Assembly (NCBI GenBank): GCA_030272155.1
Contig: CP126202.1
Location: 2,666,001 to 2,730,000, forward strand
Direction: 5' to 3'
DNA length: 64,000 bases
DNA from: Tetradesmus obliquus
Taxonomy: Eukaryota; Chlorophyta; Chlorophyceae; Sphaeropleales; Scenedesmaceae
A model generated the notes under the pieces. It was given only the letters and a program-made list of their open reading frames with translations, did not search any database and was not told the origin of the DNA. The position numbers were made by a program, and so were the translations under genes. Of this stretch, positions 1 through 63,739 are shown piece after piece (positions within the stretch are counted from its first letter, which is position 1; each line of letters begins with the position of its first letter).

Positions 1-208
1 CATGCTATGGTGTCTAAACACGGCAGCTGCTTGCCAGCAGCGCCTGCGCTGCAGCCACAGCCATGCCAGGAGGATGGCAATCCTGTCTGATGCAGCCAGC
101 CCTCTGTGCTGCCCTTGTGTGGTGCCAACCCCACCTGTGCTGCATTTGTGAGTCAAAAAGCCCACGTTGTGTGCCAGGGTAAGAGATGTGACAACATGCA
201 AAGCCCAC

Positions 209-2035
209 CTGTGCTGCCCTTGTGTGCCATGGAGTACACGCTCTGCGCGCCAGCACCGCCAAACTTTGTGAAGGCAGCTAGCTCCTGGTAGCCATCATAT
301 GCAGACTGCAGCAGCAGCAGCGGCAGCGGCAGCAGCAGCAGCAGCGGCGGCAGCAGCAGCAGCAGAAGGTGGAGCCACAGCTGACGCCATGCTATGAGAG
401 CTAGCATGCCGTACTGGTCGCTACAGCCGGATGCCGCTGATGCCACCCACAACTCATCATCATCAGCAGCCATGTGTAGTGTCAAAGCTCCTGCTATTCA
501 GTCGGCGGAGCATACATCAGCAGTATGGCAGTGGCATGATCATTGCTTTGCTGGTGTACATCAGCACGCACCGACAGCTGCTCACAAATGCCGCTTGATG
601 CCAGCAGCAGAGCAGGCACGAATGTTACAAGATTGTCACAAGAGATGTTACGAGACTGTGACAAGGGATGTTACAAGACTGTTACAAGCAGCACTCACCG
701 ACAGCTGCCCATAGCTGCCGCTTGTGGCCATGGCATGGATCTCATTGTAGGAGCCTGAGTCACTGGCCCTGCAGCAAAGCAGAGCAGGCAGGGGTGTCAC
801 AAAACTGTTACAAGCCTGTTACAAAGTACACACAACAAAGGTGCAGTTCTTTGGCGTTTGCGGTGCAGATGGGCACTGATCGTTGCATGATTACTCACTC
901 AGCCTCCTCAGCGATGCCCTCCTCTGTATCTCCTGGCCTTGTGCAAGCAGCAAACGCCACAGCCTTGCCACTCAGTGCACGGCTGCTGCTCCTGCTGCCT
1001 TACTGTAAGACATGCAGGCAGGCAGCCCCCAAGACAAGCAGGCAGTCACGCACAACGCATACATCGCATGCACCTTTTCAACTAGGCACACGCTGATGCT
1101 GCCTGGCGGAAAGACAAAGAGCAAACACGAGAGAAAAAGCACACTCACTCAGCCTCCTCTGCGATGCCCTCCTCTGTATCCCCTGGGCTCGTGCCAGCAG
1201 CAAAGGCCACATTCTTGCCACTCAGAGCTCCACTGCTGCTCCTGCCGTTGCCGTTGATCGCTAGCTGTGCTGTACTGCCCAGCTGAGGCTCTGCTGCTGC
1301 GGCGTACGTGACAGCAGCATTGAGCTCCTGGGCAGCTGCCATCAGGGAGTCGTAGTGGCTGGAGTAGTCGAAAACACCCTCCGCAACCCTGCAGCCGCAG
1401 CCGCAGCAGCAGCAGCAGCAGCAGCGGCAGGAGCTGTGGCATCAGTATAGGCAGAGAAAGCATGCATGGTTGCACTTCTGCAGAGAAAGCATGCATGGTT
1501 TCACCTGTAGATCTGCAAGACGATGGCAACGCAATGCACTGGACACTGTGACAACATGATCATACATGCTGCCACCAGTGTGTTTGTTACTGTTACGTTA
1601 CATAACAGTTTCATGGCATAACCCACTAACCTGCAGATCTGGGTACTCCCTGCGCAACGTCTCCGCGCCCAGCAGGATGACACGCAGTACTAATGTAATG
1701 AAACCTGACACTTCATTCAATGATTTGATGTGTTTGTTTACTGGTATTGTTTATTGTTTCGACTCACTAACCTGCAGATCTGTGAGATGGTCTCCACGCA
1801 GTGCACGGGGTACTCCCCGCGCAGTGTCTCCGCGCCCAGCAGGATGCCATCCACGCCATCCAGCACAGCATTGGCGATGTCTGAGCAGCAGCAGCAGCAG
1901 GAGCAGCAGCAGGAGCAGCAGCAGCAGCAGCGGCAGCGGCAGCAGCAGGAGCAGCAGGCATGCATTGCATTAGTTTGCAGCAAGCCCAGCAGGATGCCGT
2001 CAACGCTGTCAAGCACAGCATTGGCAATGTCTGAC

Positions 2036-2077
<42 letters not shown>

Positions 2078-3875
2078 GCAGGCAATGCATCAGTCCATCA
2101 TGGACCATGATGGTCAACTCAACGCAGCAGATCAGCAAACCCAGTAGCACACCCAGAGCCAACTGGCAGCTGCCTGCAGTCCTCGCAAAAGCAGTAGCAG
2201 ATGCAGCATCAACCGCAGCCGCAGCATCTGGGGTATCAGTTGTTGGGATGCACAAGCGTGCTGTTAGCACCTCCACCGCCGAGCTCACCGGTTGCCTCTG
2301 CCCGCGTGGGCCTTGGGTTGGACACCATTGAGTCCACCACGCGTGTGATGAGCACGGGCTTGCCCAGCAGGTTGCAGTGGCTGATCAGCTGCTTCTGCAC
2401 CAGCGCCATCTTCTCAGGAGCCACGTCCAGCCCGATGTTGCCCCTGTGGCAGACAACACAAAGGCACAAAGCAGCTGGGCCATTGTGGCTGACATGACTG
2501 TGGCAGACCCAGACATGGTTTGTTCACTAGTCAATCACCACCAGCAAGATGCTTGAATGTGGTGTTGCTATGTGCTTTGACGACAAAACAACGTAGCAGC
2601 AGTGCCAAACTCAGTCTGACACGCGCAGCAATGCGCTGTGGCCTTCCTAGTGGCGCTTTCTGCACACCCGCCTTGAACACTGCAGCCAGCGGCTGCTGTA
2701 TCAGCAATCACCAAGTGCAAAAAGCAGCTTCTCACAAACTATGCCATGCAGCTATTCACAGCAGCAGCAGCAGCAGCCTACCTGCTCATCACGATGCCAT
2801 CTGCTGCTGCTGCCGCCACCTTGAACCCACAACACAAACAATGTGCAGCAGCCTTTCAAAACCCTGCAGCAGCAGCTTACCTGCTCATCACGATGCCGTC
2901 TGCTGCTGCCAGGATGCCTCGGAAATTGAGCAGTGCCTGCCGCGTCTCCACCTTGGCCAGAATCTTGGTGTGCGTCATGCCCAGTGAGTCCAGGAACAGC
3001 CGCGCCTCACGCACATCCTCGCTGCAGGACACAAACAGAGAAACCACGCACAGGCAGTTGGGAACAGGTGAAGCACAGCAGGCTGAGGCCCAAGGAGCCC
3101 AGGAACAGCCGCGCCAGAGTCGCACATCACTTATTATACCCCGCTGCTGCTGCAGCTTCTGTAAAGCTGGCACACAGTTGAGTTTGGTGTACCGCCCTTA
3201 TCCCCCCCGCCTCACCGCGTGCGCGTGTAGGCGAGGTTGACGTAGTCGATCTCAAACTCTGCGCCCAGCGCCGCGATGGCCTGCCTGTCGTACTCGCTGA
3301 ACAGCGGCAGGTTGTTCTGCAGGTTGAGCAGGCTGTCAGCGCTGCGCTCCATGTGGAACACCTGGCGGGGGGGGGGGGGGGGGGGGGCAGCGGCAGCAGC
3401 AGCAGCAGCAGTGGCAGCGAGCAAAGTCAATATGCAGGTCAAAGCTTTCAGAGATAGAACTGCGCAAATTACTCACAGAAGCAGCAGCACAGGAAAACAC
3501 AGGCAAGATAAGCTTGTTCTACTGTTGCACCAAGTGCAGGTTGCTGACATGCTTTGTGACATTGTAACACATTTCAAAACTACCCCATGACAGCTCACCG
3601 TCATCAGGCCGTCCATGACTGCGCTGTTCTGCGCCTCGCAGATGATGTCCTGCCCCTCCACCTGCAGCACGGTAAGGTAGAGGCTGGCGCTGTCTGAGCC
3701 GCACACCAGGTACCTGAGATCAAGCAGCAGCAGCAGCAGCAGCGGCAGCAGAGTGTTCAGCAAATACACAGCACACAGACCGCCAGTGTCTGCTGAGGTA
3801 GAGGCTGGCACTGTCTAAGCCGCACACCAGGTACCTGTGGGTGCAGTCGTGGCAGCGACATAACGGGGCAAGATC

Positions 3876-3919
<44 letters not shown>

Positions 3920-4627
3920 GCGGCAGTGGTTCAGCAAATACCATACGAACACAGAGCAGCAGGACAGGCAGCAGAAGACATCAGCAGACAGCAGGAGCAG
4001 CAGCAGCACCAACAACAAATAGAAGTACACCATACAGCCCCCACCTGCCAATGTAGATTGTGTCTCCCTCCTTCACCATGTTGTGCAGCAGCGGGTACGT
4101 CACAGGCAGCACAGTAGGGGATGCCTCCACATCCTGGCGTGTGGTGATCATCAGCGTCTGCAGGCAAAGCAATGTAACAGCAGCCAGTGTTCGGCAGATT
4201 CATACAGTACAATGTATTTTGAAATAGTAGGGGAGGCTTCCACATCCTGGCGTGTGGTGATCATCAGCGTCTGCAGGCAAAGCAAATGAACAGCAACTAT
4301 TGTTTGGCAAGTTTATGGACGTCAACTTCAAAGTAGTAGGGGAGGCCTCCACATCCTGGTGTTTGTGATCATCAAGGTCTGCAGGCAGCAACAAAATCAG
4401 AAGCAGTTGCAGCCACTCTGGCACGGATCATTATGATCTCAACACCAAATCACTCTCACAGTTTGATAGTTGCCGCAGCCCCACCTGCCCTGCCGTGACG
4501 TTGAAGGGGTCTGGGTGTGCTGGCCAGCCATCGTCGCCGATCACGCACTGCCGCCGCACCATGACCTCCCGCCCCAGGCTGCTCAGCACCACAGCACACA
4601 GCTTCTTGGTGTTGGCCATGGCCGCCT

Positions 4628-4674
<47 letters not shown>

Positions 4675-4757
4675 GGTTTGAAGGTGCACCATGACCTCTC
4701 TCCCCAGGCTGCTCAGCACCACAGCACACAGCTTCTTTGTGTTGGCCATGGCCGCCT

Positions 4758-4836
<79 letters not shown>

Positions 4837-5641
4837 TTGAAGGTGCACCAGCAGCTCCTTTTCCAGGCTGCTCAGCACCACCACACACAGCTTTGTGGGC
4901 TTTTGCCTTGGCTGCTCTCAGCATGCAGGCGCAGAATCAGCATAGCCCGTACGAGTGCAGTGTACAACGCAGCGTTCGTGCCAGCTGCTGAGCATTGCTG
5001 CCTGTGAGATTACCCAACGCCGCACGCCGCATGCATCATTGCCTAGCTCACGTTGAGTGCTGCCAGCGTTGCGCGGTGGAAGTCCAGGCCACCCCACGTG
5101 AGGTCGATGCGTGCAGTCACCATGCCTGCCCGCAGCATCTCCTCCAGCACCTCCACATTGTGGCTGCTTGGACCCAGGCTGCAGACCAGCTTGGTGGCTG
5201 CAGGCAGAACAGAGAGAATAAGAAAGTCAGGTAACGTTTGAGGTTTTGTGTGTGCTGTTTGCAGTGTGTTGTGAAGCTAGGTGGCGCACGGGGGCAGCAT
5301 CTGGTCCAGCACTTCCACATTGTGGCTGCTTGGACCCGAGCTGCACACCAGCTTGGTGGCTGCAGGCAGGCAGAAATTGGGCAGCAGGTGGTGCATAGCA
5401 GACGCTGCTGAGCACACCTGACTTTGAGCAAGCACTATGCATCCCTTCTACCACGCCACAAGAATTTCACAAGACAATTGTGGCTCAGGACAGTACATAT
5501 GCGCCGTTGTGTGGTGCTCTCACCTGTGAATGCTCCTGGCGTATCATCTGCTGGCACCATCACCTCCGTCAAGTCAAGCGACTTGAAGAAGTGCGTCTTG
5601 GCCTTGACATGCATCCTTGGGGCTTTGCGTCCAGAAAACAT
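209..5641 (-). CDS. PYK: pyruvate kinase, plant cytosolic type, copy A (3' end off window)
   Basis: Transfers phosphate from phosphoenolpyruvate to ADP at the end of glycolysis. Minus-strand exons, 5' to 3': 5524-5641 (start ATG at 5641), 5052-5197, 4485-4625, 4045-4157, 3599-3713, 3216-3361, 2881-3021, 2289-2443, 1772-1880, 1149-1388 and 209-305. One or two small exons between 1149 and 305 were not resolved, and the rest lies left of base 1. Motifs seen: [35 protein letters not shown], catalytic-Lys segment [39 protein letters not shown] and GAETLRG. RGN and TRVVDSM are the plant cytosolic forms. All splice phases agree with copy B at 38670-51735. Exon 3 (141 nt) equals exons 3+4 of copy B, so one intron is absent here. 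Several introns hold partial exon copies. The family call is very secure; some exon edges are less so. Confidence 0.9.
893..1010 (-). repeat. copy of the donor end of PK-A exon 10
   Basis: Bases 893-975 repeat the 3' part of exon 10 (1149-1240) with its GTGAGT donor, downstream of the real exon. It is one of many exon-edge duplications in this gene. It would add a second donor to the same intron. Confidence 0.7.
1626..1681 (-). repeat. partial copy of PK-A exon 9 (donor end)
   Basis: The segment repeats the donor-proximal part of exon 9 (1772-1830), including the CAG|GTTAGT-like donor and the bases for the GAETLRG region, with small deletions. A shorter trace of the same donor is at 1501-1530. 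It lies in the intron downstream of exon 9. Confidence 0.7.
1978..2036 (-). repeat. partial copy of PK-A exon 9 (acceptor end)
   Basis: This repeats the first ~50 bases of exon 9 ([16 protein letters not shown] region) with its CAG acceptor, upstream of the real exon at 1772-1880. A CAG run (CTG in the sense direction, 2036-2077) feeds this acceptor too. Confidence 0.75.
2775..2815 (-). repeat. partial copy of PK-A exon 7 (donor end)
   Basis: It repeats the last ~25 coding bases of exon 7 (ADGIVMSR region, real copy 2881-2910) with the GT donor. Copy B has four comparable copies of the same junction at 42750-43135. Confidence 0.65.
3367..3387. repeat. poly-G run (poly-C tract of a splice acceptor)
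   Basis: Twenty-one G on the plus strand form a pure C run on the sense (minus) strand just 5' of the acceptor of PK-A exon 6 (3216-3361). The same place in PK-B has an 18-C run at 42072-42089, so the tract is shared by the paralogues. Confidence 0.95.
3788..3845 (-). repeat. partial copy of PK-A exon 5 (acceptor end)
   Basis: It repeats the acceptor and the first ~45 coding bases of exon 5 ([13 protein letters not shown] region; real copy ends at 3713), upstream of the real exon. Confidence 0.75.
4160..4385 (-). repeat. two partial copies of PK-A exon 4 (acceptor end)
   Basis: Segments near 4228-4277 and 4337-4385 repeat the acceptor and the first ~50 bases of exon 4 ([15 protein letters not shown] region, real exon 4045-4157). 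They lie directly upstream in tandem, so the acceptor is present three times. Confidence 0.75.
4626..4847. repeat. CAG runs between exon-3 copies
   Basis: CAG runs at 4626-4672 and 4756-4840 (CTG on the sense strand) lie immediately 5' of the acceptors of PK-A exon 3 and of its copy at 4690-4755. They act as the pyrimidine-rich tract of those acceptors. Confidence 0.85.
4690..4755 (-). repeat. complete 66-nt copy of ancestral PK exon 3
   Basis: The copy is bounded by a CAG acceptor (right) and a GTGCAC donor (left), is 66 nt long and phase 0-0. It covers the same 22 codons as PK-B exon 3 (40368-40433). In PK-A the working exon 4485-4625 runs through this donor position without an intron. A third, frameshifted copy is at 4847-4917. 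Because the 66-nt copy keeps frame and both splice signals, it could be included as an extra exon. Confidence 0.7.
5285..5358 (-). repeat. partial copy of PK-A exon 2 (acceptor end)
   Basis: It repeats the acceptor and the first ~65 bases of exon 2 ([16 protein letters not shown] region; real exon 5052-5197), upstream of the real exon. PK-B has an equivalent partial exon-2 copy at 39705-39760, also upstream. Confidence 0.75.
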
Positions 5642-6833: not shown

Positions 6834-7300
6834 CGCAGTTGCTGGTCAGCAGGCACAGCTCGCGCGCTTCCCGCTCCCGCAGCAAACTTGCATCCAGCTG
6901 CGGCAGCAGCACACCACATGATAAAGATACAGCAGCGCCAGATCGCTGCAAGTCGGGCGCGGCTGAAGGTGCGCTGCTTGCAGCCTCAGCAGGTGTCAAA
7001 CGTGGCTAAACAGCTGCTTGAAGCACCCAAGCAATCGTGCTTCTTCAGAGCTCAAGCCTGTTCCCGCTCAGGCAGCACACATTGGCATCCAGCTGCTGCA
7101 TCGCGTGCAGCAGCTACAGCAGCCGCACACCAAAAGGAACAGCACCATACCACTGCAAGTCGGGCGCGGCTGAAAGTGCGTGCTTGCAGCTTCACCAGGC
7201 GTAAAAAGCATCCATGCAACCGTGCTGCTTCAAGACTCAAGCTTGGTCCCGCTCCGGCAGCACATTTGCGTCCAGCTGCTGCAGCTTGGGCAGCAGCTTA
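6834..7300 (-). repeat. three copies of the SDS22 terminal coding end
   Basis: Copies near 7240-7300, 7052-7100 and 6850-6910 repeat the last codons of SDS22 (LPKLQQLDANVLPERE region, real copy 7380-7440) downstream of the real stop. The outermost has changed the tail to PQLDASLLREREARE and reads open for a further stretch. The middle copy is frameshifted. Confidence 0.75.
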
Positions 7301-7368
7301 GGCAGCAGCAGATGCAGCAGCCCACCAAAGGAACAACAACTGGCAGCGCCAAGCTAATGCTCGGTGGC

Positions 7369-9572
7369 TCAAGTTTGTTCCCGCTCCGGTAGCACATTGG
7401 CATCCAGCTGCTGCAGCTTGGGCAGCAGCGCCAGCAGCCGCTGCTTGTAGTCCGGCGCTGCTGCTGCTGGGTTGTGTTCCAGGTAGATGGTGGTCAGGCT
7501 GTCAACCTGGCGGCAGCAGCAGCAGCAGCAGATGGGTAAGCATATGGGTAAGCACGGTCTGTCTGCTGCTGGGTTCATTTCAAGTCTAAAGGTAGAAGGT
7601 GGTGAGGCTGTCAACCTGGCGGCGGCAGCAGCAACCGCAAGCAAAGGCTTGATTACTACATGACAAGATCAGCATAGCAAGAATTATGTAACACTTGCAA
7701 ATAGCAAGGGTGGCACAAGGCGCCGCAGGCAACCTGTTCTATGAGCGCTTCCTTGATGACGTTCAGCCAGAGCTCCTCCATCACCGCCAGACAACAAAAA
7801 CAAAATAGATAGTTGCCCACCTGATCTTCTAGCGCTTCTTCTATGCCATCCAAGCTGGGCATTTGGTTGTCATTGAGCCACAGGTCCTCCATCACCGCCA
7901 GATAACAAAAGCCAAATAGATAGGTGCCCACCTGATCTTTTAGCGCTTCCTCTATGCCATCCAAGCTGGGCATTTGGTTGTCATTCAGCCACAGGTCTTC
8001 CAGCTGGCTCAGGCCCTGCAGGTGCTCCACCTTGCTGATGCGATTGTTGCTCACATCAAGCACCTGCAGCAGCAGCAGCAGAAGCAGCAGCAGAATCACA
8101 GCTTAGGCCCTGCCGATGCTGCACCTTGCTGATGCGGTTGTTGCTCAAATCAAGCACCTGCAGCAGCAGCAGCAGCAGCAGCAGCAGAAACACAGCTTAG
8201 GCCCTGCAGGTGATCCACCTTGCTGATGCGGTTGTTGCTCACATCAAGCACCTGCAAGCAGATGTTTGCATGTGCGCATGAGCTCCTACTTTTCAGCGCC
8301 TCACCGCAGCGCCTGCAGCTGGGCCAGCTGCTCATCAAGCACAAGTGGCTGCCGATGCAAAGCATTCAATTGAATATGCTGCCAACGGACGTTGTTCATT
8401 GCCACTTTGCAGCGCCTCAACCGCAGCGCCCTCAGCTGTGTCAGCTGCTGGTCCAGGCTCCAGATGCTGCCAACATAAAGCATCAGTTGCGTCTACAACT
8501 GATGTGTTGCCGACTTATGTATTGTACTGCCATTTAGCAGCGGCTCACCCGCAGCGCCTTGAGCTGCGTGAGCTGCTGGTCCAGGCTCCAGATGCTGCCA
8601 ACGCAAAGCATATGCGTCTGCAACTGATGTGCTGCCGACTTATGTATTGTGCTGCCAGTTAGCAGCGGCTCACCCGCAGAGCCTTCAGCTGCGTCAGCTG
8701 CTCATGAATACCACAAGTGCAGGTGGCTGCCGCATGCCAAGCTTCTGCATTGGCAAGCCAGTTGCCAAGAGTCTGCAAAAGCATGTGCATTTCCTGGCAC
8801 CTTGAGTTTATACTAGCAAGCATGCCACTCACCCGCAGCGCCTTCAGCTGTGTGAGCTGCTGGTCCAGGCTCCAGATGCCGTTGTGGCTCAGGTACAGCT
8901 CCACAAGGGAGCTGCAGGCAGCGATACCGCACATGCTCTCAAGCCTGCAGCAGCAGCACGCATGAAGCAGGTGTGGCTTCTGTGGCTACTGCTTACTATG
9001 ATGAACTTTGATGTTTTGTCCCTGCCGGCTATCGCAATCGCCGAGAAAAACTCCCTTGCTGCGCAAGCATACGCTCATATCTGCTCCTCTGACCGGCAGT
9101 TGCCCTGCAGTGTCGCTCTGCACAGGCGCACCTGCTTTTGCTGCTGCTGCTGCTGCCAGTGACAGCCTGTTGCCGCGCACCTGTTGCTCTGCAGGGACAT
9201 GCGACGCAGCGCAGTCAGGTGGCCCGGCACAATCCTGCTGCTGCTGCTGCTGCCTGTGGTAGGCTGCTGCCGCGCACCTGTTGCTCTTTTGTTCATATTG
9301 AGTTGGTTACAAGGGCTGGACCTAGCAACCATGCACTCGTTTCATAGACATGTCCTAGGACTCACAGGCTATGAGAGGATGAGGCAACTTGTCCCGACAC
9401 TCTTCCCACAGCCCACCAGACACCCACCCCACCTGTTGCTCTGCAGGGAGATGCGCCGCAGTGCGGTCATGTGGCCAAGTGCTGCTGCTGCTGCCTGTTA
9501 CAGGTTGCTGCTGTGCGCACCTGTTGCTCTGCACGGAGATGCGCCGCAGTGCGGTCATGTGGCCCAGGTTTA

Positions 9573-9624
<52 letters not shown>

Positions 9625-10986
9625 TCTTGAAGCCTGCTGCTGCCCACCTGTTGCTCTGCAGGGAGATGCGTCGCAGTGCGGTCATGTGGCCCAGGTTTTC
9701 GATCTTGGAGATGCGGTTGCGCCCCAGCCACAGCTCCAGCAGGCACGCCTGGCTCTGCAGCAGCAGCAGCAGCAGCAGCAGCAGGGGTGACAACAACCGT
9801 AGCAGCACTACAGTGAGCAAGGAGCCAGCAAGCAGCACCTGCCAGGAAGCCCAGATCTGCAGCAGCAGCAGCAGCAGTACTGCCAGTCCTGGCTTGCGTC
9901 ACACGGCGCCTAACTGAAGGCAACAATGTGCAAACACAGTGACAAACGTGACGTCTCCGCTCACCCCCAGGCCTTCTATGGTGCGGATGCGGTTGCTGCC
10001 CAGCTCCAGCACTGTGAGCTTGCTGAGGCCACCCAGTGCCTCAATGGCTGTCACCTTGTTGGCAGCCACAAACAGCTCAAGGAGTGGTGGGCTGGCAGCT
10101 GGGTCTGCTGTCAAGCTGCTGAGCGGCGCAAGGCTGCGGATCTGCACAAAAATGAGAGAAATGAACAGAAACAGTGAGTAAAAGCGAGGTTGGAGGGTGC
10201 CAGCAAAAGCAAGTTGCAGGAGAGGGATGGTGCACACAACGGAATTTTCAGTGTGTGTCAGCCGGCCGAGGCCTTCCAGTGCCTCAATGGCTGTCACCTT
10301 GTTGGCTGCCACAAACAGCTCAAGCAGTGGCAAGCTGGCGGCTGGGTCTGCGGTCAGGCTGCTCAGAGGGGCCAGGCTGCGGATCTGCACAGAAGTGACA
10401 GAAATGGACAGAAAGAGTGAGTAAAAGAGAGGGTAAAGGGTGCCAGAGAGAGCAAGTTGCAGGAGAGTGATGGGTGGGCACAACGAAGATTATCAGTGTG
10501 TGTCAGCCGGGTCAGGCCTTCCAGTGCCTCAATGGCTGTCACTTTGTTGGCAAACAGTTTAAGGAAACAGCTCAAGGAGTGGTGGGCTGGCGGCTGCCAA
10601 GCTGCTGAGAGGAGACAGGCTGTGGATCGGCGTGAGGCATGCAAACGATGAAATGATGATATGATGATAAGTTATTGGTAACGTGGGGCTGGGAGGTGAT
10701 GGCCGCCAGCAACAGCAGCCACAGCGGCGGCGGCACGTGGGAGTGCTGCACCCTGCACAGCCATCTACCCCAGTGGTGACAAGCAATGCTTGAAGGTGCG
10801 CAAATTTGCGCTTTCATGTTAGACTGTCCATCCTTACAGGGCATGGGCACCTGTACCTTGCTACCTGTACGATTTCCAAGCATTGGGAGCTGTGCAAGCA
10901 GCAAACAGTCCACCTGATTGCATCAGAACTCCAGCCAGGTCAGCTTGGCACAGCCATACACAAAACCTGGCAAGCAGTTGTGCTAT

Positions 10987-11066
<80 letters not shown>

Positions 11067-11666
11067 TGCCAGCAGCCCACCTGGTTATAAGAAAACTCCA
11101 GCCGCGTCAGCTGTGAGAACCCCTCCAGTGTCGGGATCTGCACAGGCAAAGAGCAAGCAGGCAGACGCGGAGTCAGCAGCAGGTACAAAACGCCACAGGA
11201 GGCCAGTACAGCCGCTGCCGCTGCTGCCCACAGCCTCGCTGCAGAGAGCAGATTGCTGCATGCTGTCCACAGCCTCTTCGCACTGAGCAGCCGTTGTCTG
11301 CAGCTCTGATTCCTCTGCCGTTGCCGTCGCCGCCGCCGCTGCTGCTGCTGCTGCTGCTGCCCCTTCTTGTCAAAACCAGTACACAAGCTAAGTGCCCGCA
11401 AACATACTGCAGCCTCACCGCAGTGAGCAGGTTGCAGCCGCTATTGCTGCTATTGCCGCTGCTGCTGCCGCCGCTGCAGCCTCGCCTCAGTGAGCAGATT
11501 GCCGCGCAGCTCCAGGTCCTCCGCTGATGCTGATGCTGATGCTGCTGCTGCTGCTGCTGGTTCCTCTTCTTAAACCCAGCACACAAGAGATGAGTGCCCC
11601 AAACTTTAGTGCAGCCTCACCTCCTTGAGCACGTTGTGCCTCAGCTCCAGGTCTCCAAGCGCTTCT

Positions 11667-11697
<31 letters not shown>

Positions 11698-12433
11698 ATA
11701 ACTGATTTTGAACATTACAGCAGCCTCACCTCAGTGAGCAGGTTGTCCCTCAACTCCAGGTCTTCCAGGGCCCCTTTGCAGCAGCACTCGTTCACGCCCG
11801 CTGCATCAGCGATGATGTTCTGGCGCAGGTTCAGCGCACGCAGTCCTGCAGGCAACAATGGCATACATGTGCTAAGGGTTTACAGTTGTAGCTGTTATGG
11901 ATAAACCCTACGTGATGTTCTGGCACAGGTTCAGCGCACACAGGCCTGCAGGGAACACCAGCACACCAGCAGAGCCAGCCAGCGGATTGCTGCGTCAAGA
12001 CGCCAATAGGGGTCGGTTCTGCATTGCAGCTGCTGTTATGTGTGACTAACAACCTCCAATGCCGTTATACAGCCATTCGCTGCTGCTGCTTCAGGCTCAA
12101 AGGTGCTGGTGGCAACGCTATTGAGAGAGCTGACAGCTGCTGCAGTCCGGTGCAATCCACAGGCAGCAAGAGGCTGGTTGTAGCAGGTGCCAGCAGTAAA
12201 CCCCACCTGTCAAAGCTACAACCCTAGGGTCTAATGTTTGCAGGCGGTTTGCAGTAAGGTCTAGTGCCTGCAGGGCCAATGAAGCAGTGCAGCAATCAGC
12301 AGCTGTTGATGAAGAATGGCAGGTGCTACATTGCAGCTGGGCTACTGCTGCAACGTACAGTGAGCGTAGGTGATATCTCTACGGTGGAAAGGTCCCTCAG
12401 ATGCGAATTTGTCAGATCCAGAACGTCCGCCAT
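7369..12433 (-). CDS. SDS22: SDS22-like leucine-rich regulator of protein phosphatase 1
   Basis: Nine minus-strand exons: 12359-12433, 12207-12267, 11730-11845, 11081-11137, 9965-10141, 9648-9754, 8833-8944, 7932-8063 and 7369-7506. They sum to 975 nt with agreeing phases, giving 324 aa and TGA at 7369-7371. The protein is almost entirely ~22-residue SDS22-type LRRs, for example LDLTANRLQTLD, LELGSNRIRTIEGLG, LWLGRNRISKIENLG, LYLSHNGIWSLD and LDVSNNRISKVEHLQGLSQL. It ends with an LRR cap (LTTIYLEHNP, then a QRLLALLPKLQQLDA-type close). Family members bind the catalytic subunit of PP1 in the nucleus and cytosol. The start at 12431-12433 gives MADVLDLTNSHL directly before the first repeat. The gene is divergent from the neighbour at 12920. 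Introns contain many partial exon copies. Confidence 0.92.
7735..7897 (-). repeat. two donor-end copies of SDS22 exon 8
   Basis: Segments at 7820-7897 and 7735-7790 repeat the end of exon 8 (WLNDNQMPSLDGIEEAL region, real copy 7932-8005) downstream of it. The first is nearly intact; the second is degraded. Confidence 0.75.
8104..8257 (-). repeat. two acceptor-end copies of SDS22 exon 8
   Basis: Segments at 8104-8162 and 8198-8257 repeat the first ~55 bases of exon 8 (LDVSNNRISKV region) with a CAG acceptor, upstream of the real exon. Exon 8 is therefore flanked by copies of both of its edges. Confidence 0.8.
8301..8712 (-). repeat. four donor-end copies of SDS22 exon 7
   Basis: Segments near 8668-8712, 8546-8600, 8415-8470 and 8301-8345 repeat the end of exon 7 (IWSLDQQLTQLKALR plus the GTGAG donor; real copy 8833-8885). 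The spacing is 110-130 bases. Confidence 0.8.
9110..9570 (-). repeat. donor-end copies of SDS22 exon 6
   Basis: At least three clear copies (9520-9570, 9427-9476, 9177-9230) and weaker ones (about 9270, 9110) repeat the end of exon 6 (GHMTALRRISLQSNR plus donor; real copy 9648-9700). They are interleaved with CTG runs. Confidence 0.75.
10250..10640 (-). repeat. two long acceptor-end copies of SDS22 exon 5
   Basis: Segments 10250-10392 and 10495-10640 repeat ~130 bases from the start of exon 5 (IRSLAPLSSLTADPAAS through FVAANKVTAIEALEGL; real exon 9965-10141), upstream of it. The nearer copy is almost identical in protein sequence and keeps its acceptor. The farther one has an internal rearrangement. 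Confidence 0.82.
10980..11065. repeat. (GCAA)n tetranucleotide microsatellite
   Basis: About 20 uninterrupted GCAA units lie in the SDS22 intron just downstream of exon 4 (11081-11137). They are not coding. Confidence 0.95.
11225..11670 (-). repeat. donor-end copies of SDS22 exon 3
   Basis: Segments near 11610-11665, 11470-11525 and 11413-11450, with weak ones near 11230 and 11275, repeat the end of exon 3 (LEDLELRDNLLTE plus the GTGAGG donor; real copy 11730-11790). An acceptor-side copy of the same exon (LRALNLRQNI region) is at 11912-11955. Confidence 0.72.
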
Positions 12434-12919: not shown

Positions 12920-15372
12920 ATGTTGCCACGCGTTACCATAACGCCTGATGTTTCTGGCCGGACTGTTTCTAAGAACTTCTCCTCCAAGGCCAAGCCACAG
13001 ACAGACAGCAGCAGGAGGAAGCCAGTGCACGCTGCGTATGCCCCAGCTGCAAGGTATGCTTAGTCTTCATCAACTGCATCAGCGTCCATCGCACATGCGC
13101 ACTATGGGGTTGTGCCATGCAGCCTGACCGGCCTGTCCGCGTGCTGGGTGACCTGGCCTGCCGACCCTGCTATGCATACGATAACCTGCTGACTCATATT
13201 GTTGTCCATGCATGCAGGTCGTCCGCACCCAAGGCCCTTGCTAATGTCACAGTCGAGGGCGTAAAGAGGCGCAGCTTCGAGAAGCCTCCTCTGCACAGCG
13301 CGCTCGAAGCCCCTGGTATTCAGTCATGCCTTATTGACGCCGATAGCGCAGGCAGCACGCAGGATGTGGCCTCGCAGCAAGCCCTCTCACACACCACAGA
13401 GGCCAGCAGCTGCCACATCAGCAGCAGCACAGCCACACCATGCAGCAGCACCAACAGCCTCGCTAAGAGCGACAGCGAGCTCGCGCTGCTGCTAAACAAC
13501 GCTGACCTGTCACGTCCAGGCATCACAACCATCAACATCGGCAGCATCCCTATCCAGGTGCCCCTGGCAGTTGTGGATGTCCCTGCTTCTGATGCTGCTG
13601 CTGCAGCAGCAGCAGCCCATGCAGCAGCACCAGCTGCTGCTGCAGCAGAGCAGCCTGAGGATGCAGCAGCAGCAGCAGCAGCAGCAGCAGCTACAGCCTC
13701 CAAGCTCAAGGCCACATCAGCTGAGTTTTACCCTCAGGCCTACCTGGCTGCAGCAGCTGCTACTGCCATCGCTGCCACCTCCCTCAGCAGCAGCAGCAGC
13801 AGCCACTCCAATGCTGCTGCAGCTGAGCAGCAGCAGCAGCAGCTTGCAGATGCTACTGTACTTTCATATGTTTCAAATGATCAGCAGCAGCAGCAGCAAG
13901 AGCAGGCTCCTGCTGCTTACGCAGCAGACGCCCAGCAGCAGCAGCAGGTTGTGGCCGCAGCAGACCCCCAGCAGCAGTACTGGCAGCACTGGCAGCAGCA
14001 GTGGCCGCAGCAGCACTGGCAGCAGCAGCAGCAGCAGCAGATGCCCATGGCAGTGCATATGTTCTTCCCTGTGCCGGTGCCAGTCCCTCCTTACATCATG
14101 CCAGCCTACCCCTTTGCATACCACCAGATGCAGCAGATGCAGATGCAGCCGCTGCTGCTGCCGCACCCGCAGCAGCAGCAGCAGCAGCAGCCTGCTGCGA
14201 TTGCTGCAGATGCAGACACCAGCAGCAGCAGCAGTGTGCCTCCCACACCAGCACCCAGCAGCAGCAGCAGCAGCTATGTGCCGCTGTCACCCGCACCTAG
14301 CCTGCCAGCTGATACAAGCAGCCTCATGTCAACCCCTAGGGGCCTTTCCGGCTGGGCGTTGGCTCACAGCAGCAGCATCTATGGTGGCAGCAGCAGCAGC
14401 AGGCCCGGCAGCAGCGCCAGCAGCATCGCTGGCAGCAGCTACAGCACCGCGCGTACCGGCCGGCAGCAGCAGCAGGCGCTGCGCGATGCCGGCACAGTGA
14501 CAGTATCCGCTGCAAGCTGTGTGAAGGATGCTGCTGGTGCATTGGCCAAGGTTGTGAGCAGGCATGGCAGCTGCCTGCTGCTGTCTTTGGCACGCGCAGG
14601 CGATCAGGCAGCCCAGGCAACGCATGTTGCAGCTAAGTCGCTCGCAGTGGCGCGGTTCTATGTGAATGCACACATGTCGGCTGCAGGTGCAGCTGGCATT
14701 GATGCAGCAGCAGCACTCACAGGCATGGAGCCTTCTACTCCCGCTGCTGCTGCATCAGCAGATGAGGAGGTGGTGTTTATGCCCTTCAACCGCAGCGCTG
14801 TAGCAGCTGGCAGCAGCAGGGCTTCAGCAGCAGGAGATGCGGAGCCTGCGCTTGGCTTCATTGTAGCAAAGGCAGGTGCTAAGGACTTGCCTGTTGCACT
14901 TCCGCCACCAGTCGGCATCCCAGCATGCATGCAGGAGCGCCAGCAGCAGCAGCAGCAGCAGCATGATGCTTCTTCCACTGCTGCCGCCAGCAGCAGCAGC
15001 AGCACCGCAGCAGCAGTGTGGGCAGCACCGCTGCTGAAAGCTGGTGCTAACACAGATGTAAACAAGCTTTCCAATGCCATCATCCACAATGTGTTGGGCT
15101 GCAACCACGTAGCTCTGCAGCTGGCAGGTGCTGCTGCATGTCACGTAGCAATGCAGGCTTTGATTAAGGCCCGCTCTCGGCTGCAGCGCAAGTTTGGCGC
15201 TGACATTGTGGCCACAGCCAGCTTTGCGAATGAGGACACCAGCCGCAGCATCGGGCGCAGCACGGTGTTTTTGCGGCTGGATGTGATGCGCAGCAACCTG
15301 CTGCAGCAGCTGGCGGCCGGCATGGCTGGGCAGCAGCAGCAGCAGCAGCAGCAGCTTGCTGGTGCTGTGTAA
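12920..15372 (+). CDS. Gln/Ala-rich protein with PAM2-like motif and two SpoVS-like (Alba-fold) domains
   Basis: Exon 1 is 12920-13053 and exon 2 is 13218-15372; the intron 13054-13217 is GTATGC..TGCAG. Together they give 763 codons (762 aa, TAA at 15370). Exon 1 ends two bases into a codon and exon 2 restores an Arg, so the join is clean. The middle is rich in Gln, Ala and Ser runs (residues ~170-460). Near residue 206 the segment SKLKATSAEFYPQAYL fits the PAM2 pattern that binds the MLLE domain of poly(A)-binding protein. Residues ~471-595 (VSAASCVKDAAGALAKVV.., then FMPFNRS, FIVAKA) and ~659-736 (KLSNAIIHNVLG.., then ADIVATASF, TVFLRLDV) both resemble bacterial SpoVS, a member of the Alba-like nucleic-acid-binding superfamily. 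A role in mRNA binding is inferred. No exact family name is known to me. Confidence 0.85.
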
Positions 15373-23790: not shown

Positions 23791-23880
23791 CTACTGTGGT
23801 GCGTAGCGGTACAGCAGGTCAACCAGGTCCACTGCATGTCGCGCATTCCTGTCCCATACAAAATCCATGTGAGCGTACTG

Positions 23881-23920
<40 letters not shown>

Positions 23921-24316: not shown

Positions 24317-24362
<46 letters not shown>

Positions 24363-25588: not shown

Positions 25589-25684
<96 letters not shown>

Positions 25685-39475: not shown

Positions 39476-39526
<51 letters not shown>

Positions 39527-42480: not shown

Positions 42481-42521
<41 letters not shown>

Positions 42522-45500: not shown

Positions 45501-48500
45501 AGGCCACAGCGGGGAGGGGGCAGGCAGCGGGCTGCGGGGCACTGCTGCTGCACATGCAGCGGAGCTTGATGAGGACATGATGTGAGTGGCTTGCTGCAGT
45601 TCTGTTGTGGGTGCTCATCACAACTGCTCTGTTGTATTTGCCTCATCTGCTCCAAAGCGGCCGAGGCTGCATGCAGCCCTAGTTGCAGGCAGCGCGCGGT
45701 GCCACTGACAGCCACGTGTGTATTGTAGCAGTCTGCCACGCTTCAGCTTTGGCATCAGCTGCTTTCGCTGAAGTGATGTGAAACAAACGCAGTAAGCGAC
45801 CTGTTGCTAAAGATACTGCTCCTGCTGTTTGTCGTGCTTGCTGCTGCGTAGCCCCAGCAGCGGCGTGTCTCCTGCCAGTCACATTGCAAGCCCCGTTGTC
45901 ACTTTCGTGATGTGCTTGCTGCTGTTTTGCTCCGCGCAGCCCCAGCAGCGGCGTTCACGCTGGTGCTCGTGCTGCTGGGGTTGCTGCTTCTTGCTGAGAT
46001 CCATATTAATAAGTCAATTAGTGCTGTGCTGCCTGCTGTTTTGTTCGACTGTGCAGCCCCAGCAGCGGCGTGTCTCCTGCCGGGTCGTTCAGTGACGTGC
46101 AAGGGTTGGGCGCAAATGGCGGCAAGAGTGGCTCGGCAGGCAGCTTCTCCAACCTGCGGGTGAGCCAGGCGCCATCAAGTATTTGGAAATAGTTTTTGTG
46201 TGGCAACACATGCCAAAGTGTACATTGGTCATTCCCTTTTTGTGGCTAACTGACGGCAAGATGGGCTCAGCGGGCAGCTTCTCAACCTGCGGGTGAGTAT
46301 TCATACAGCCAATGCAATCATTCATTGTTATGTGGTATGCTGACACATGTTACACTGGTGATGATTCATGTAGTCATGTGGCGGCAAGATCGGCTCAGCA
46401 GGCAGCTTCTCAAACCTGCGGGTGAGCCAGGCGCTGCGAACCAGATATCTGCTAACAGCATCACACACGTGTGGGATGACGCATTTGATATTGCTGATCA
46501 TTGCCTGATTTGTCTGAATGGCGGCAAGATGGGTCCGGCACGCAGCTTCTCCAACCTGCGCGCGAGCTAGGGGCAGAGGCCTACGCTTAGCTTTTGCATG
46601 ACTCCATACCAGCTACTGCCGCCAGGCTCTCGTGTTGCTTGGTCATTGAGCTGCCTGTACAGTCATGACAGAAGGGCATGTGTTTCTTGCATGAAGCAAA
46701 AAACAGCCGACGATGTTGACGCCCGGGCCTGTGACGCCTGTTTTCCATTGAACTAAGTGCTGCCTGCCATGCGTGTGCTTTCTGTGCTGTGCAGGGCCTG
46801 ATGCAGTCAAGCAGCTATGCCAGCCTGCAGGTGGGGCTGTGCAGCATGCATATGCTGCATCTGTCTTACAGCTGTGTGTGGTTTGCACCTGCTGCTTCAT
46901 CATGCTGCTATGCTTGTCCTCCTCATGCTGCTCATCATGCGTTGCTGTCCTTGCTGGTCCACACATACAGCTATGAGCAAAAGCTATGAAACAAGCACAT
47001 GGGAAGCAGTCATGCTGGACATGTGTATTGGGCAGTCTCTGCTGCCTCTAGCCTTTCCTGCAGCGTAACAAAAGAAATATGTACTTTTTCCTTCTCCTGC
47101 TGCTGCTGCTGCTGCAGGCGGCCTACCAGGAGGTGCATTCCTTTGCCATGTTTGGCGGTGCGGGCTCACACAGCGTGGCCGCAAACCTGCACACCCTCAA
47201 GGCCAGCACAGGTGGGGTGCTGTCAATCTTGAAACAAAAAAGCCTGAGGCTGGCCTGAATAGCTGACTTGCTGGATTTGGCGGCGCGGGCTCACACAGCG
47301 TGGCAGCCAACTTGCACACCCTGAAGACCATCACAGGTGCGGCGCTGCCATTGTGAAATGGGACTGTAGGCGGCCAGCTGGACTTTGTGTTTCCATGGTT
47401 GGTGCGGCTGGCTTACACAGCATGACACCAAACCTGCAACCTGCAACCTGTGAGGCGGCATTGGCTGCTGCAGCGTGCATCAGGCTAGCTGGACCTGTGC
47501 TGTTCATGGCTGATACAGCGCGGCCGCAAACCAGCACGCCCCACAGGGCAGGGCTGGGTGCTGCTTGCGTTCATGATATGCGCAAGGCTACTCACACCAG
47601 ATTGTGCGGCTTCTCCAGTGAAGTGGCATACCGTGGCAAGGTTTGGTGTGCCTGGTCATGTTTATGCACGCATCTGCGGCAGCGCAAGTCCTCTGTAGGG
47701 CTAGGTGGCAATGCTGACCTGCGTTTTATGAATGCTTACAAATGGTGCTATCAGTAAGCCTTACCACTTGTGTCAACTCGCAGGTGCCGGGGGTGCGGCC
47801 AAGTCTTCGCTAGGCCCCACTGCCAAGGACAATGCCGACCTGCCCTTCATGAACATGCTGGAGAGCCTCGCCAGCTCAGCGGCGCCCACAGCAACACAAA
47901 TCACACCCTGTCGGATTGCAGGTGGAGGCGGCTGTGGCAAGCCCTTGCTTGGGCCTCGACACATAACTCTGTGTAGCTGGTTGAAGCGTTGAAGTAAAAG
48001 CAACACTCGTTGCACTGCACCAATCTGCAGGTGCCACAGGCGCAGGCAAGTCTTCGCTAGGCCCCACTGCCAAGGACAATGCGGATTTGCCCTTCATGAA
48101 CATGCTGGAGAGTCTGGCGAGCTCAGCGGTGCGAGCAGCAGGCAAGGTGCAGGCAGACCTCATCATCGTGTACACAGCGACAGGTGAGACTGAGATCATG
48201 TAGGGTTGTGGGCGGTGCTGGCATCAGAACCTGGTACACGGCAACAGCTGCTCGCCCGTACGGCAGACATTTACGGTTGTGAGCTATGCTGGCAGAGTTG
48301 TTTTGGTGCGCGCGGCTGGCAAGGTGCAGGCAGACCTGATCATCGTGTACACAGCGACAGGTGAGGCACTGTGCGGTTTGATCACACACATGTGTTATTG
48401 GGCCGCACACATGTGTGCACTGGATCACACGCATTTGCGGGTAGGATCACATGCATGCGTTGGTTGTGAGGCGTGCTGTGTTGTGCTTGCAGTAGTGTTG

Positions 48501-50674
48501 TGGTGGGCTGGCAGGCAAGGTGCAGGCAGACCTGATCATCGTGTTGTGCACACGGCGGCCAGGTGAGGCCAGGCAGCCGTGCTGTGCTGTGTGACTGTAG
48601 GGGTGCAAGGCAGCGAAGTGCACGCAGGCAGCCCACATGGCTCACAGCAAAGCCTTTCACAACAAGCCACCGCCCCAATGTGTCTATTGTATCCTGCTGC
48701 CTGTGCTGCAGGGCGCACTGCTCAGCTAGTGGCCAAGTACCGGCCTCCCATGCCCATCCTGACGCTGGTGGTGCCGCGCCTCGTCAACGACGGCATACGC
48801 TGGAGGCTGGAGGGCAAGTGAGTGCGGCGCGGTGCAAATTTTAGCAAGTAATGACCGTGCAGCCTGCTGCAGAGGTTTGATTTTTCAGCAATTTGCTTGA
48901 TCATGTTTGCTTGTGGATTTCACTGCACTGCTGTACTGCCGGTCTTGCAGCATGCCACACAGCACTGCACCAAGCCAGCCGCCTTCAAACCAAACTGAGT
49001 TGCATGTGTCATCAGCTGCTAGCTGGTGCTAGGACCCACATGTAACTGCCTCTCTCTCTACTATCCTGCACAACCCCGCACAATCAACTGTGCGCAGGGC
49101 CACCGCTCGCACCTGCCAGCTCACAGGCGCCTTGTACTGCAACAAGCAAGCCACATCACATTGAGATGTGTTTCGTCTCCCTTCTGTGTGCCGCAGGGTC
49201 ACCGCCCGCACCTGCCAGCTCACGCGCGTTCTGTTGCCCATGCTGGCCAAACTGTGAATGTTATCTCATCACACATCATCATGTAATGTATGTTATGTTA
49301 TGTTATGTTATGTTGCAGGGCCACCGCCCGCACCTGCCAGCTCACGCGTGGTCTGCTGCCCATGCTGGCCACGCCGGGGCCTAACGGGGACGCGGTGCTG
49401 GAGGCGGCGGTGATCAACGCGGCACTGGCGGGGCTGGTTGCTCCGCGGCACCACGTGGTGGTGCTGCAGCAGATCCACAACGACCTGTGCGTCAAGGTGA
49501 GCTGATATGGTTTTGGTCATCAAGTGTAGGAGAGGGTTACTGCAGCTGGCTGGTGGTCTTTTTGTACTGCTGCAGCAGATCCACAACGATCTGTGCGTCA
49601 AGAAATGTTTCATCAAAGTTCTAGTTACGGCACGGGTGGGGCTGGTAGCACCGCGGCACCATGTGGTGGTGCTGCAGCAGATCCACAACGACCTGTGCGT
49701 CAAGGTATGTCTGATGCCATCTTGTGAGAAAACATCTGGACGTTGGATTAAACACAACGGTTGTGTTGGCTTGACGGATGGTGTTTGGGGTAGTAACAAG
49801 ATGCAAGCAATGACATGATCACTTCTATGAAGCAGGCACCTGCTTTGGTGGCTGCCTTTGTGCACTGCTGCTATCTGATGCGGTGTCACCCGGACACTGA
49901 TCCTGAGGTCCTTCTGTCTTCTCAGGCTGTTGCTCAAGCTATTGATGATGCTGTTGAGTGCTTTTCTGCGGTTTTTTTCTGGCGTTTTGGACGACGATGT
50001 GTTGTTCTTCGATGTTTCCTCCCCCAATGAGCCTCGCGTTGGCTCCTGACTGGGGTTCCCACTCCTCGTTGAGTGGAGCATGTAGTGTAATGTGTGTGAT
50101 GTATGCAGTGTCTATGCATATTGTGTACGGAGGTGTTCAGGCTTTTGAAAAGTGAGGAGTGCTGGCTGAACGTGCTGTTGTACTTCTGTATGTGCAGATC
50201 ATGTCGCTGGACTCTTCTGGCAGGCGCATTGCAGGCCCACGTGTGGCTCGTGCTGCCAAGGGCACCGGCATAGGTGAGTGACAGCTGCCACATATATGAA
50301 GACGTCCAAGAACAATATGTGGCACATGCTCATCAGTCGGTCACTGGCCAGCAGCCGCACACAAGTGCAGATGCAGTAGGGCAGTGCACTTCATCCCTCT
50401 CATGCCATTGCATGTTGGGTTTGCACTGTGAAGTGGCCTCCTTGCAGCCTGTGCCGCCCAGTCCGTGCTGTCCTTGATGACTCGCTGTGTGGCCATGTTC
50501 GGCAACGGCTGCAACGCGCTGCTGCTGCTGCTGCTGCTGCTGCGCTGCAGGGCCATACATCAGCGCGCTGCACCCCAAGAGCCCAAACCCCAAGGCGCTG
50601 ACGCGGGCCATGGGCGCAAGCACAGGTGCATTGCGCCTGCTGTGTGGTGCTGCTTTGAAGCCTTGCTTGCTTGC

Positions 50675-62200: not shown

Positions 62201-63739
62201 CAGCGACGCTGCTGCTACAGGCGCTCGCTCCACAAATCAACGCTGCTGCTGATGGTACTCACTGCACACAGCGACGCTGGTGTGGCTGCCTAATGCATTG
62301 TTGGGGCTCGTGGCAAAACCGCTGGGGCAGGGCGTGCACTCGGTTTGGAATCGCTGGCCCAGCGAGTATGTATCCTTCCCACAAGGAGCCATGGATGGAT
62401 TTGACACACTAGGCACGTACTTGAATCCCGGTGGGTTGGCTGCAGGACAGCAGTAGACACAGGCAAGACAGGGAGGGAGGAAATGAGAGATGGGCGCAGC
62501 ATGGACACCATAATTAGCAGACTAGGACGAAAATGGACAACTGGCGTTGACGTGTTGCAGCAGTTGCCGGCTGCAGTAAGCTACTGCGGCGCCGTGCGCT
62601 GCAGCTGTCATGTGCCCTGCGGCGCTTGGGGGCACAGAAGGTCACTTTTACACTGGCCTCAACTGCTGCTGCAGCTGCTGCGGCTGCTGCTGCTGCGGGG
62701 CGCTGTTACGGCTGCTGCTGCTGCTGCTGCGGCTGCTGCTGTGCCCTGCTGCGGCTGCTGCTGCTGAGTGCTGCTGCTGCTGCTGCGGCGGCTGCTGCGG
62801 CTAGTGCTGGGCGCTGCTGCTGGCCGCTGCTGCGGCTAGTGCTGGGCGCTGCTGCGGCTAGTGCTGGGCGCTGCTGCTGCTGCTGCTGGGCGCTGCTGCG
62901 GCTGCTGCTGCGGCTAGCGCTGGGCGCTGCTACGGCTGCTACGGCTGCTGCTGCGGCTGGTGCTGGGCGCTGCTGCGGCTGCTGCTGGGTGCTGCTGCTG
63001 CGGCTAGTGCTGGGCGCTGCCACGGCTGCTGCTATGCGCTGCTGCGCCCTTAGCGCTCTCTGTCAGCAGCAAGCTGAGTGTTTGATTAGCACTGATGGTC
63101 CAGCCATGGGTTGACCTTTTGTGGGGGTGTTTGACTCGCAACTGCAGCTGCTCACTGTGTTGCACCCAGCGCTACAGCTGCTGTTGCTCAACTTGCTACT
63201 GCTGCAGCTACTGCTGCGGGACACACGCTGCCACTGCTGCAGCTACTACTGCGGGACACCTGCTGCCACTGCTGCATTGTGCTGATGACACTCTCATGCT
63301 GCTAACTACATTGACTGTGAGAATATCTACTGCAATGGCACTCTGCTGCTCCTTGTGCCGAAACTGCCACTGCACGCTGCCGCTGTTGCGCTGTACTCAG
63401 CGGCAGCTGCTGGCCTGCCTGCAACCTTTCTTGCTGCTTGCCACATTGGCATGTTTCGAACCACCTGCGCATTGCTAGTGTGCGAGTGCCCTTTGCTGCC
63501 TGCTGCACTACTGTTCCTACCTGCTGCAACCCAGCTGCTGTTGGCCACACTGCACATCGTAGCGTTTGCCTAACACGCTGGTCTATCACGCTGCTGCTGG
63601 TGCTCACCGCACTGCTTCAAGCTGCCTGCTCCTGTGCCTGTAGTGATAAGCTTGTTTGGGCATGGCACTGGGTTGGCTCCGAGAGGGCAGTACATATTCA
63701 AAGGGCATGCTGCACAGCCCGACACTGAATTGAACTGCC
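59256..63739 (-). CDS. Cys-rich surface protein with GCC2/GCC3-like repeats (5' end off window)
   Basis: Minus-strand exons: 63608-63739, 62263-62439, 61647-61817, 60977-61189, 60391-60675, 59698-60090 and 59256-59329. The first six each start and end in phase 1, so the chain stays in frame; the last ends in phase 0. Exons begin with a PPGF-type stretch (ANPPGFKYVP, IAPPGFLMIS, VAPPGFYIIP) and contain paired Cys such as GCAACPLNMYCPLGANPVPC, CTPCPSG and PCPQDHYCTGGSPF. This resembles the ephrin-receptor-like GCC2/GCC3 Cys-rich repeat seen in large algal surface proteins. It is presumably extracellular, with N-glycosylation-type sites (NVTI, NMTY, NLTG). No signal peptide is visible because the start lies beyond the right edge. 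A hydrophobic exon at 58979-59069 may follow as the membrane anchor. Function is unknown. Confidence 0.75.
60750..60815 (-). repeat. acceptor-end copy of Cys-rich gene exon (60391-60675)
   Basis: It repeats the start of the exon (APPGFYIIPGMM region) with acceptor, upstream of the real copy. Confidence 0.7.
62085..62262 (-). repeat. array of ~33-bp donor-site repeats
   Basis: About five units repeat the last ~15 coding bases (SVAVC) and the GTGAGT donor of exon 62263-62439, followed by GCTGCTGCTA-type filler. They are directly downstream of the exon in tandem, and at least four keep a usable GTGAG. Confidence 0.82.
62640..63060. repeat. degenerate GCTGCTGCGG / GCTAGTGCTGGGC tandem array
   Basis: About 420 bp of CTG/CGG-rich sequence lie in an intron of the Cys-rich gene. 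A ~22-bp unit near GCTGCTGCGGCTAGTGCTGG recurs several times. Any ORF through it is low complexity. Confidence 0.88.

Follow-up and report, generated by a model that had tools for sequence, protein, structure and literature searches.

Concerted evolution by gene conversion usually takes place between whole genes. The exon-edge copies that we describe here for the green alga Tetradesmus obliquus may resemble it, in that similarity within a gene goes beyond what their duplication history would lead one to expect, but the partners of each pair are an exon edge and a truncated copy of 22-129 nt, mostly 80-250 bp away. The closest published case that we found is the RdRp gene of potato where, according to the passages dealing with the event, a single tandem duplication across an intron-exon boundary created a new intron, as treated under the AGGT model (PMC4974935). 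As in T. obliquus, the duplication crosses the boundary and carries splice signals with it; however, the potato case is one intron-making event, whereas the 85 copies counted at 50 junctions of T. obliquus are intronic and no new intron was seen at the positions compared. Novel introns of Drosophila are attributed, in the portion of the report that treats them, to tandem duplication of proto-splice sites (PMC2891723), where coding sequence and its splice motifs are again duplicated locally, but within exons, whereas the T. obliquus duplications straddle the exon edge. Small tandem duplications, given as <100 bp in the introduction of the report, form where breaks were induced in mouse and human cells (PMC8355091); they are likewise short and head-to-tail, but that text describes neither an association with coding edges nor the loss of one duplicate half. 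Among the top-ranked titles of a literature search none described exon-edge copies in Tetradesmus.

Copies of exon edges in the window genes

The window, i.e. the whole stretch of 64,000 nt that was analysed, spans positions 2,666,001-2,730,000 of contig 12 of the T. obliquus genome (104.7 Mb, 17 contigs). Exons were placed by a purpose-written spliced-alignment program with homologous proteins as templates, which was used on PK2 and afterwards on PK1, SDS22 and both lipases, and these alignments confirmed the names that a preliminary description of this DNA had given to five genes (two pyruvate kinases, SDS22 and a lipase pair). In PK2, exons 2-10 and the end of exon 1 were identical across three templates. 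The best of these, P0001, has a label that in our reading resembles a transcript assembly, and its protein is free of any copy-derived sequence. Two spliced lipase models show 98.9 and 99.5% identity to T. obliquus proteins. The genes and the most prominent copies are as follows.

209..5641, minus strand: PK1, pyruvate kinase gene with 12 modelled exons and 11 introns, from spliced alignment to P0002/P0001; its 3' end leaves the window
5294..5369, minus strand: copy of the start of PK1 exon 2 with acceptor (original 5132-5207); a homologous copy and spacer are present in PK2
4686..4893, minus strand: two copies of the start of PK1 exon 3 (original 4556-4620)
4226..4387, minus strand: two copies of the start of PK1 exon 4 with acceptor, of the contiguous tandem type
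893..995, minus strand: one copy of the end of PK1 exon 10 with donor (original 1143-1245), intron part unalignable; a genome search with its spacer finds only the spacer itself
7372..12433, minus strand: SDS22 gene, PPP1R7-type LRR, 9 exons and 8 introns, from spliced alignment
6868..7310, minus strand: copies of the SDS22 coding 3' end in the 3' flank, two of three stopping exactly at the stop codon
7762..7891, minus strand: contiguous tandem copy of the end of SDS22 exon 8 with donor, period 111
8101..8247, minus strand: two copies of the start of SDS22 exon 8 with acceptor
9164..9568, minus strand: three copies of the end of SDS22 exon 6 with donor
10256..10631, minus strand: two copies of the start of SDS22 exon 5 with acceptor, contiguous tandem, period 243
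12973..15372, plus strand: ORF of 799 aa with a SpoVS domain, its 3' end copied downstream at 15422-15819
23794..28543, minus strand: lipase A gene, from spliced alignment; copies only in the intron after exon 25586-25463 (at 25180-25398)
30557..36044, minus strand: lipase B gene, copies in introns 5, 7, 8 and 9 of the modelled part
38670..50273, plus strand: PK2, second pyruvate kinase gene, 16 exons to 48818 plus 49319-49496 and 50198-50273
39686..39763, plus strand: copy of the start of PK2 exon 2 with acceptor; position and spacer as in the PK1 copy, yet it groups with its own exon
42766..43149, plus strand: copies of the end of PK2 exon 8 with donor, the first bearing an intron flank common to PK1
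44318..45350, plus strand: seven tandem copies of the start of PK2 exon 11 with acceptor, units of ~137-148 bp
48305..48567, plus strand: two copies of the end of PK2 exon 15 with donor
49089..49710, plus strand: PK2 exon 49319-49496 with both edges copied, the start at 49089-49249 and the end at 49568-49706

Repeats were also noted at 60638-60826 and 62073-62282, in a gene called Cys-rich in the preliminary description; these were seen as repeats only.

With probes that combined up to 60 nt of an exon edge and 10-12 nt of the adjoining intron, 60 copies were detected in 29 of the 54 introns of the five genes, 32 on the donor and 28 on the acceptor side, while identical probes run against other introns gave 10 matches in 162 control tests. 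The copies of exon edges claimed in the preliminary description are therefore real. When the probe was made stricter (exon only, the copy ending no more than 12 nt from the junction), copies were still present in 27 of the 54 introns. The accompanying statement that most introns hold them is correct for PK1 (9 of 11), PK2 (9 of 15) and SDS22 (6 of 8); lipase A (1 of 10) and lipase B (4 of 10) do not conform to it. Local repeat pairs (<1.2 kb apart, score ≥50) were direct in 98 cases and inverted in one. The expected arrangement, with exon ends (donor) copied downstream and exon starts (acceptor) copied upstream, was found for 65 half-exon copies and the wrong side for 2, a count that includes one gene outside the window. 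This direct, right-sided layout is the topology of tandem duplication across the exon edge. The copies are truncated inside the exon, the copied exon part having a median length of 50 nt (range 22-129 nt) and a median spacing to its exon of 125 bp. They are ~10% different from the exons and differ from one another as well.

Coding edges in and beyond the window

Twelve gene models on seven contigs were available for a census, namely the five window genes, one PK and three partial lipases from elsewhere, and CWC22, DDX41 and SPF27. The latter three came from 10-kb stretches at fixed coordinates and were modelled because they were recognisable: of 11 such stretches six hold 36 families and the other five none, and inspection of five of the six family-holding stretches led to these three models. 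Families were counted in both orientations within 150 bp of the modelled span. An exon was taken as secure if it measured ≥30 nt; CWC22, DDX41 and SPF27 were modelled with six mini-exons (2-12 nt) that are doubtful. Copies ending >12 nt from the junction were excluded from the multi-copy, codon-position, 3'-end and 12-model counts. Fifty of the 53 local direct-repeat families overlap a secure exon; two others are located at doubtful mini-exons (11-12 nt) of CWC22 and SPF27 and one is a 29-bp minisatellite in DDX41. Over all 12 models, L030 and L031 included, 43 of 95 introns contain copies. Ten models, without these two lipase models (seven introns, no copies), together hold 85 copies at 50 junctions, and the same ten were used for the analyses of 3' ends and of capped intron lengths. 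Two lipase models have no repeat families. Tandem-type duplications are abundant at coding edges of genes on five contigs, and their coding half is preserved.

Copying is not restricted to splice junctions, because it also affects coding 3' ends, where there is no splice site. Copies were found for three of six coding 3' ends tested, three for SDS22, two for the PK gene on contig 8 and four for the SpoVS-domain ORF; none were detected at the 3' ends of lipase A, lipase B and PK2, the tested point of PK2 not being the true gene end. In two of the three SDS22 copies similarity stops at the TGA, and of the two copies of the contig-8 PK one has retained the flank and the other has lost it. The factor shared by the copied sites is the edge of the coding sequence. 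A splice-specific mechanism, involving for instance U1-bound ends, was set aside as some coding 3' ends behave alike. A genome-wide process, as envisaged in the preliminary description, is supported by the 50 of 53 families at secure exons and by the three genes from fixed-coordinate stretches, but its characterisation as one that duplicates splice junctions was too narrow.

Tests made without gene models were weak. Donor-like sites fell within local repeats 1.2-2.3 times as often as random positions did in the 11 fixed stretches (2.1-2.7 times in the window), and a test for motifs at alignment ends gave small excesses. A weak codon-usage predictor, which caught 60% of exon bases at the cost of 10% of intron bases, assigned a coding-like copy to 27 of 50 families (54%) in stretches without gene models, compared to 38% for shifted positions; the 23 families for which this predictor called no coding copy count against an explanation based on coding edges.

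Origin and fate of the copies

The intron part that accompanies the exon edge has met with different fates. In 11 of 33 junctions it is clearly alignable (z>3), as in a plain head-to-tail duplication, though at least in PK1 exons 3 and 9 this is due to triplet runs; where the intron part is still alignable, origin by tandem duplication is seen directly. In 17 of 33 it scores no better than unrelated introns (z<2). Exon identity is nearly the same in both classes, 0.913 in the 11 pairs of the former and 0.886 in the 17 of the latter, and exon and intron-part identity are related with a Spearman coefficient of 0.20 (p=0.27). The coding part of the copies is ~89-90% identical to the live exon. 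On the donor side identity is 0.82 at +4-6, drops to 0.47 at +6-10 and is 0.29-0.35 past +15, so that the loss starts at +6. Acceptors of the main set show a more gradual profile (0.74 at 4-6 nt, 0.61 at 6-8 nt, 0.48 at 10-15 nt), and those of the three fixed-stretch genes fall from 0.94 beside the AG to 0.38 at 6-10 nt (8 junctions).

We tentatively favour, with a probability of roughly 45%, the explanation that short duplications at coding edges are tolerated and that the exon is subsequently re-copied onto its copy. Short head-to-tail duplications with a spacing of mostly 80-250 bp would be frequent in the T. obliquus genome, and those straddling a coding edge, either a splice junction or a stop codon, would be tolerated since the gene goes on using the intact outer exon and the truncated copy ends up in the intron or 3' flank. 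Later the coding part of the copy would stay ~90% identical to the exon while the non-coding part would disappear. We infer from the sequence comparisons that the exon may re-copy itself onto the copy, by gene conversion limited to what is still homologous, that is to constrained sequence, and duplications at coding edges could thereby remain recognisable well beyond the time at which purely non-coding ones fade. A boundary of similarity near the limit of constraint fits re-copying because only constrained sequence stays homologous. Observations that count in favour are the nearly equal exon identity of pairs with and without an alignable intron part, the drop at +6 of donors, the SDS22 copies ending at the TGA, and the grouping of the exon 2 copies of PK1 and PK2 with their own exons.

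In this last case a copy and spacer are common to both genes (the spacer score was reached by 1 of 1000 shuffles and by none of 973 other intron stretches), and seven informative sites group the copy with its own exon, as opposed to one that groups copy with copy; in our reading the former include silent sites. Against re-copying, the PK2 exon 2 copy is 0.85 identical to its own exon over 66 nt, and the same value of 0.85 separates the PK1 and PK2 exons. In 19 of 23 multi-copy junctions the copies are closer to the exon than to one another, an outcome that a shared exon template and plain constraint on the exon would both give. Differences are 2.8 times as frequent at third as at first and second codon positions (95% 2.0-3.9), somewhat high with respect to the roughly 1.75-2 that we expect for a freely drifting copy, which again counts against re-copying, as does the gradual acceptor profile of the main set. 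In a PK cluster on contig 7 with 36 families no local pair is common to paralogues, which suggests fast turnover of copies and likewise speaks against re-copying. Gene conversion between repeats of 50 bp is moreover unusual.

A doubtful alternative is break repair in which duplication of the coding edge and insertion of unrelated filler are a single event, the intron flank mostly never having been duplicated. It would account for the 17 of 33 intron parts that resemble unrelated introns and for PK2 exon 8, where the flank beside the exon is new and unlike that of PK1, and the copy keeps the old PK1-like flank (scores 15 and 43 versus PK1), a pattern better matched by insertion of new filler than by re-copying. 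Other paralogue flank comparisons, beyond exons 8 and 2 of PK2, mostly gave no clear signal, with the last four lipase B junctions left out. Two spacers searched in the genome, of 32 in total, match only themselves, as filler would. On the other hand 11 of 33 pairs are alignable through the intron part, insertion of filler leaves unexplained that similarity ends close to where constraint ends, at donors as well as at a stop codon, and no source of filler emerged from the comparison of the 32 spacers with the window and further loci, which gave only own-gene, paralogue or triplet-repeat-like matches. An origin of the spacers from introners or other mobile elements was also rejected on the basis of the two genome-wide searches, in which common words are skipped.

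Ordinary survivorship requires no special process: tandem duplications would occur at random, selection would purge those inside exons, and the exon half of the remainder would be easier to recognise. Junction-straddling duplications are indeed the harmless class and short-period non-coding arrays exist, but we consider this explanation disfavoured and unlikely. Simulations of neutral decay, run with random indels of small or large size, mostly failed to reproduce the data. Donor-type simulations retained an identity of 0.73-0.76 at +6-10, at odds with the observed donor profile, and left the intron part clearly alignable in 63-88% of cases; simpler simulations left it alignable in 80-97% in three settings and failed there on flank alignability. 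Only the harshest setting (15% substitutions and 6% indels per site, mean 8 bp), with 45% alignable and 35% not, came near the flank data, but with far more gaps than the real copies, whose coding part has 22 gaps in 3,286 aligned bases. The number of purely intronic families is the second point on which survivorship can be judged, a random tandem duplication doing no harm when it lies wholly within an intron or spans a single coding edge. Based on the observed spacings of detectable families, these should account for 43% of families if introns are capped at 308 bp, 34% at 250 bp, 12% at 150 bp and 4% at 120 bp, while at most 3 of 53 were observed. The excess of coding-edge families is strong unless introns were ~120-150 bp long at the time of duplication; with introns of ~120 bp geometry alone could explain the missing intronic families, which favours survivorship and counts against tolerated and re-copied duplications.

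Splicing, coding capacity and intron length

Selection of the copies as splice decoys or regulators, the idea put forward in the preliminary description, appears improbable. That coding parts are kept better than the flank would agree with it, and the codon-position ratio of 2.8 could mean constraint on the copies. The splice dinucleotides, however, are kept no better than the rest (GT survives in 30 of 37 copied donors and AG in 30 of 35 copied acceptors, about what the identity of the exon part predicts), 20 of 22 gaps shift the frame, copies of coding 3' ends have no splice site and could not act in splicing, and the exon 2 copies of PK1 and PK2 group with their own exons, silent sites included. 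Of 33 periods 10 are divisible by three. The proposed role in nonsense-mediated decay found no positive support either. Use of the copies as translated exons was rejected on account of the frame-shifting gaps and mixed periods, and tandem exon duplication with mutually exclusive exons on account of the truncation of the copies (median 50 nt) together with the same gaps. The copies look non-functional and, as far as the sequence tells, are non-coding in effect. The creation of introns, also suggested before, is unsupported, though weakly tested: spliced coding sequences fit the proteins of relatives, and the compared intron positions of PK1/PK2 and lipase A/B are shared bar one PK2 intron, which holds no copy. 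An assembly artefact is scarcely credible, given copies ~10% off their exons and mutually different and families in modelled genes on five contigs.

Coming back to tolerated and re-copied duplications, it is possible, if a shade less probable than that explanation itself, that exons act as local templates which repeatedly overwrite truncated edge copies in adjacent introns and 3' flanks. Coding-edge duplications would then persist, build up across the genome and make introns longer, against a background of rapid turnover in the rest of the intron sequence. If re-copying is true, it would amount to exon-templated homogenisation at the 50-bp scale within a genome and to a route by which introns grow from exon debris, and it would call for caution in gene annotation and in the dating of duplications. 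Should the ordinary reading apply instead, the genome would still offer a natural test bed for splice-site choice, since decoy-like splice junctions occur in close to half of the introns examined.

Introns with copies are longer than those without, with medians of 512 bp (n=43) and 297.5 bp (n=52) in the 12 models and of 475 and 322 bp in the window genes alone, a difference of ~150-215 bp. The mean intron length of 462 bp in T. obliquus is, in the comparison reported, the longest among five green algae (230-302 bp in the others; PMC5966456), which is in line with growth by such debris, other causes being possible as well.

Possible exon exchange, intron difference and tandem duplication in PK1 and PK2

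One exon of the two pyruvate kinase genes (PK1 3216-3361, PK2 42102-42247) shows 97.3% identity, with 94% at third positions, whereas the other seven exons compared are only 67-91% identical, which suggests, at the level of sequence, an exon-sized exchange between the paralogues. The spliced models also differ by an intron at PK2 40434-40741, which is absent from PK1, where exon 4625-4485 spans the site. A search for an exon-edge copy in this intron found none, and its presence in PK2 only may reflect either gain in PK2 or loss in PK1. The start of PK2 exon 11 is surrounded by a tandem array:

44318-45429: eight tandem units of ~137-148 bp each

Every unit carries a CTGCAG acceptor-like end, and the remainder of the exon is joined solely by the last of the eight.

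Pyruvate kinase loci on other contigs

Two further loci lie outside the window:

Contig 7, 216001-246000 (loci L010-L012): a cluster in which several sets of pyruvate kinase exons lie
Contig 15, 1372433-1376628: pyruvate kinase-like locus

The contig 7 cluster contains 36 local repeat families within its 30 kb, none of which was found in common among its paralogues. On contig 15 a single domain stretch is matched several times consecutively, in some matches with in-frame stops, and these serial matches are perhaps of the same type as the exon-edge copies of the window.

A relative's lipase translation and repeats outside modelled exons

P0138, the translation of a lipase from a relative (label GHRQ01007145), departs from the conserved protein after the segment matching window exon 26465-26390 and continues as low-complexity sequence, in what looks like intron retention.

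Repeats outside modelled exons include:

29803-30114: minisatellite, 22 units of 14 bp, separating lipase A and lipase B
16373-16434, 34873-34929 and 55831-55906: two-copy tandem repeats, periods within 26-37 bp

The three two-copy repeats show that small duplications do occur also in DNA of the window that appears to be non-coding.

A SpoVS-type domain

12973-15372, plus strand: 799-aa ORF with SpoVS-type domain

The ORF is rich in glutamine and alanine runs, and its match to the Pfam profile PF04232 scores 26.7 bits against a cut-off of 24. SpoVS takes its name from bacterial sporulation; the domain is here encoded by a green alga.
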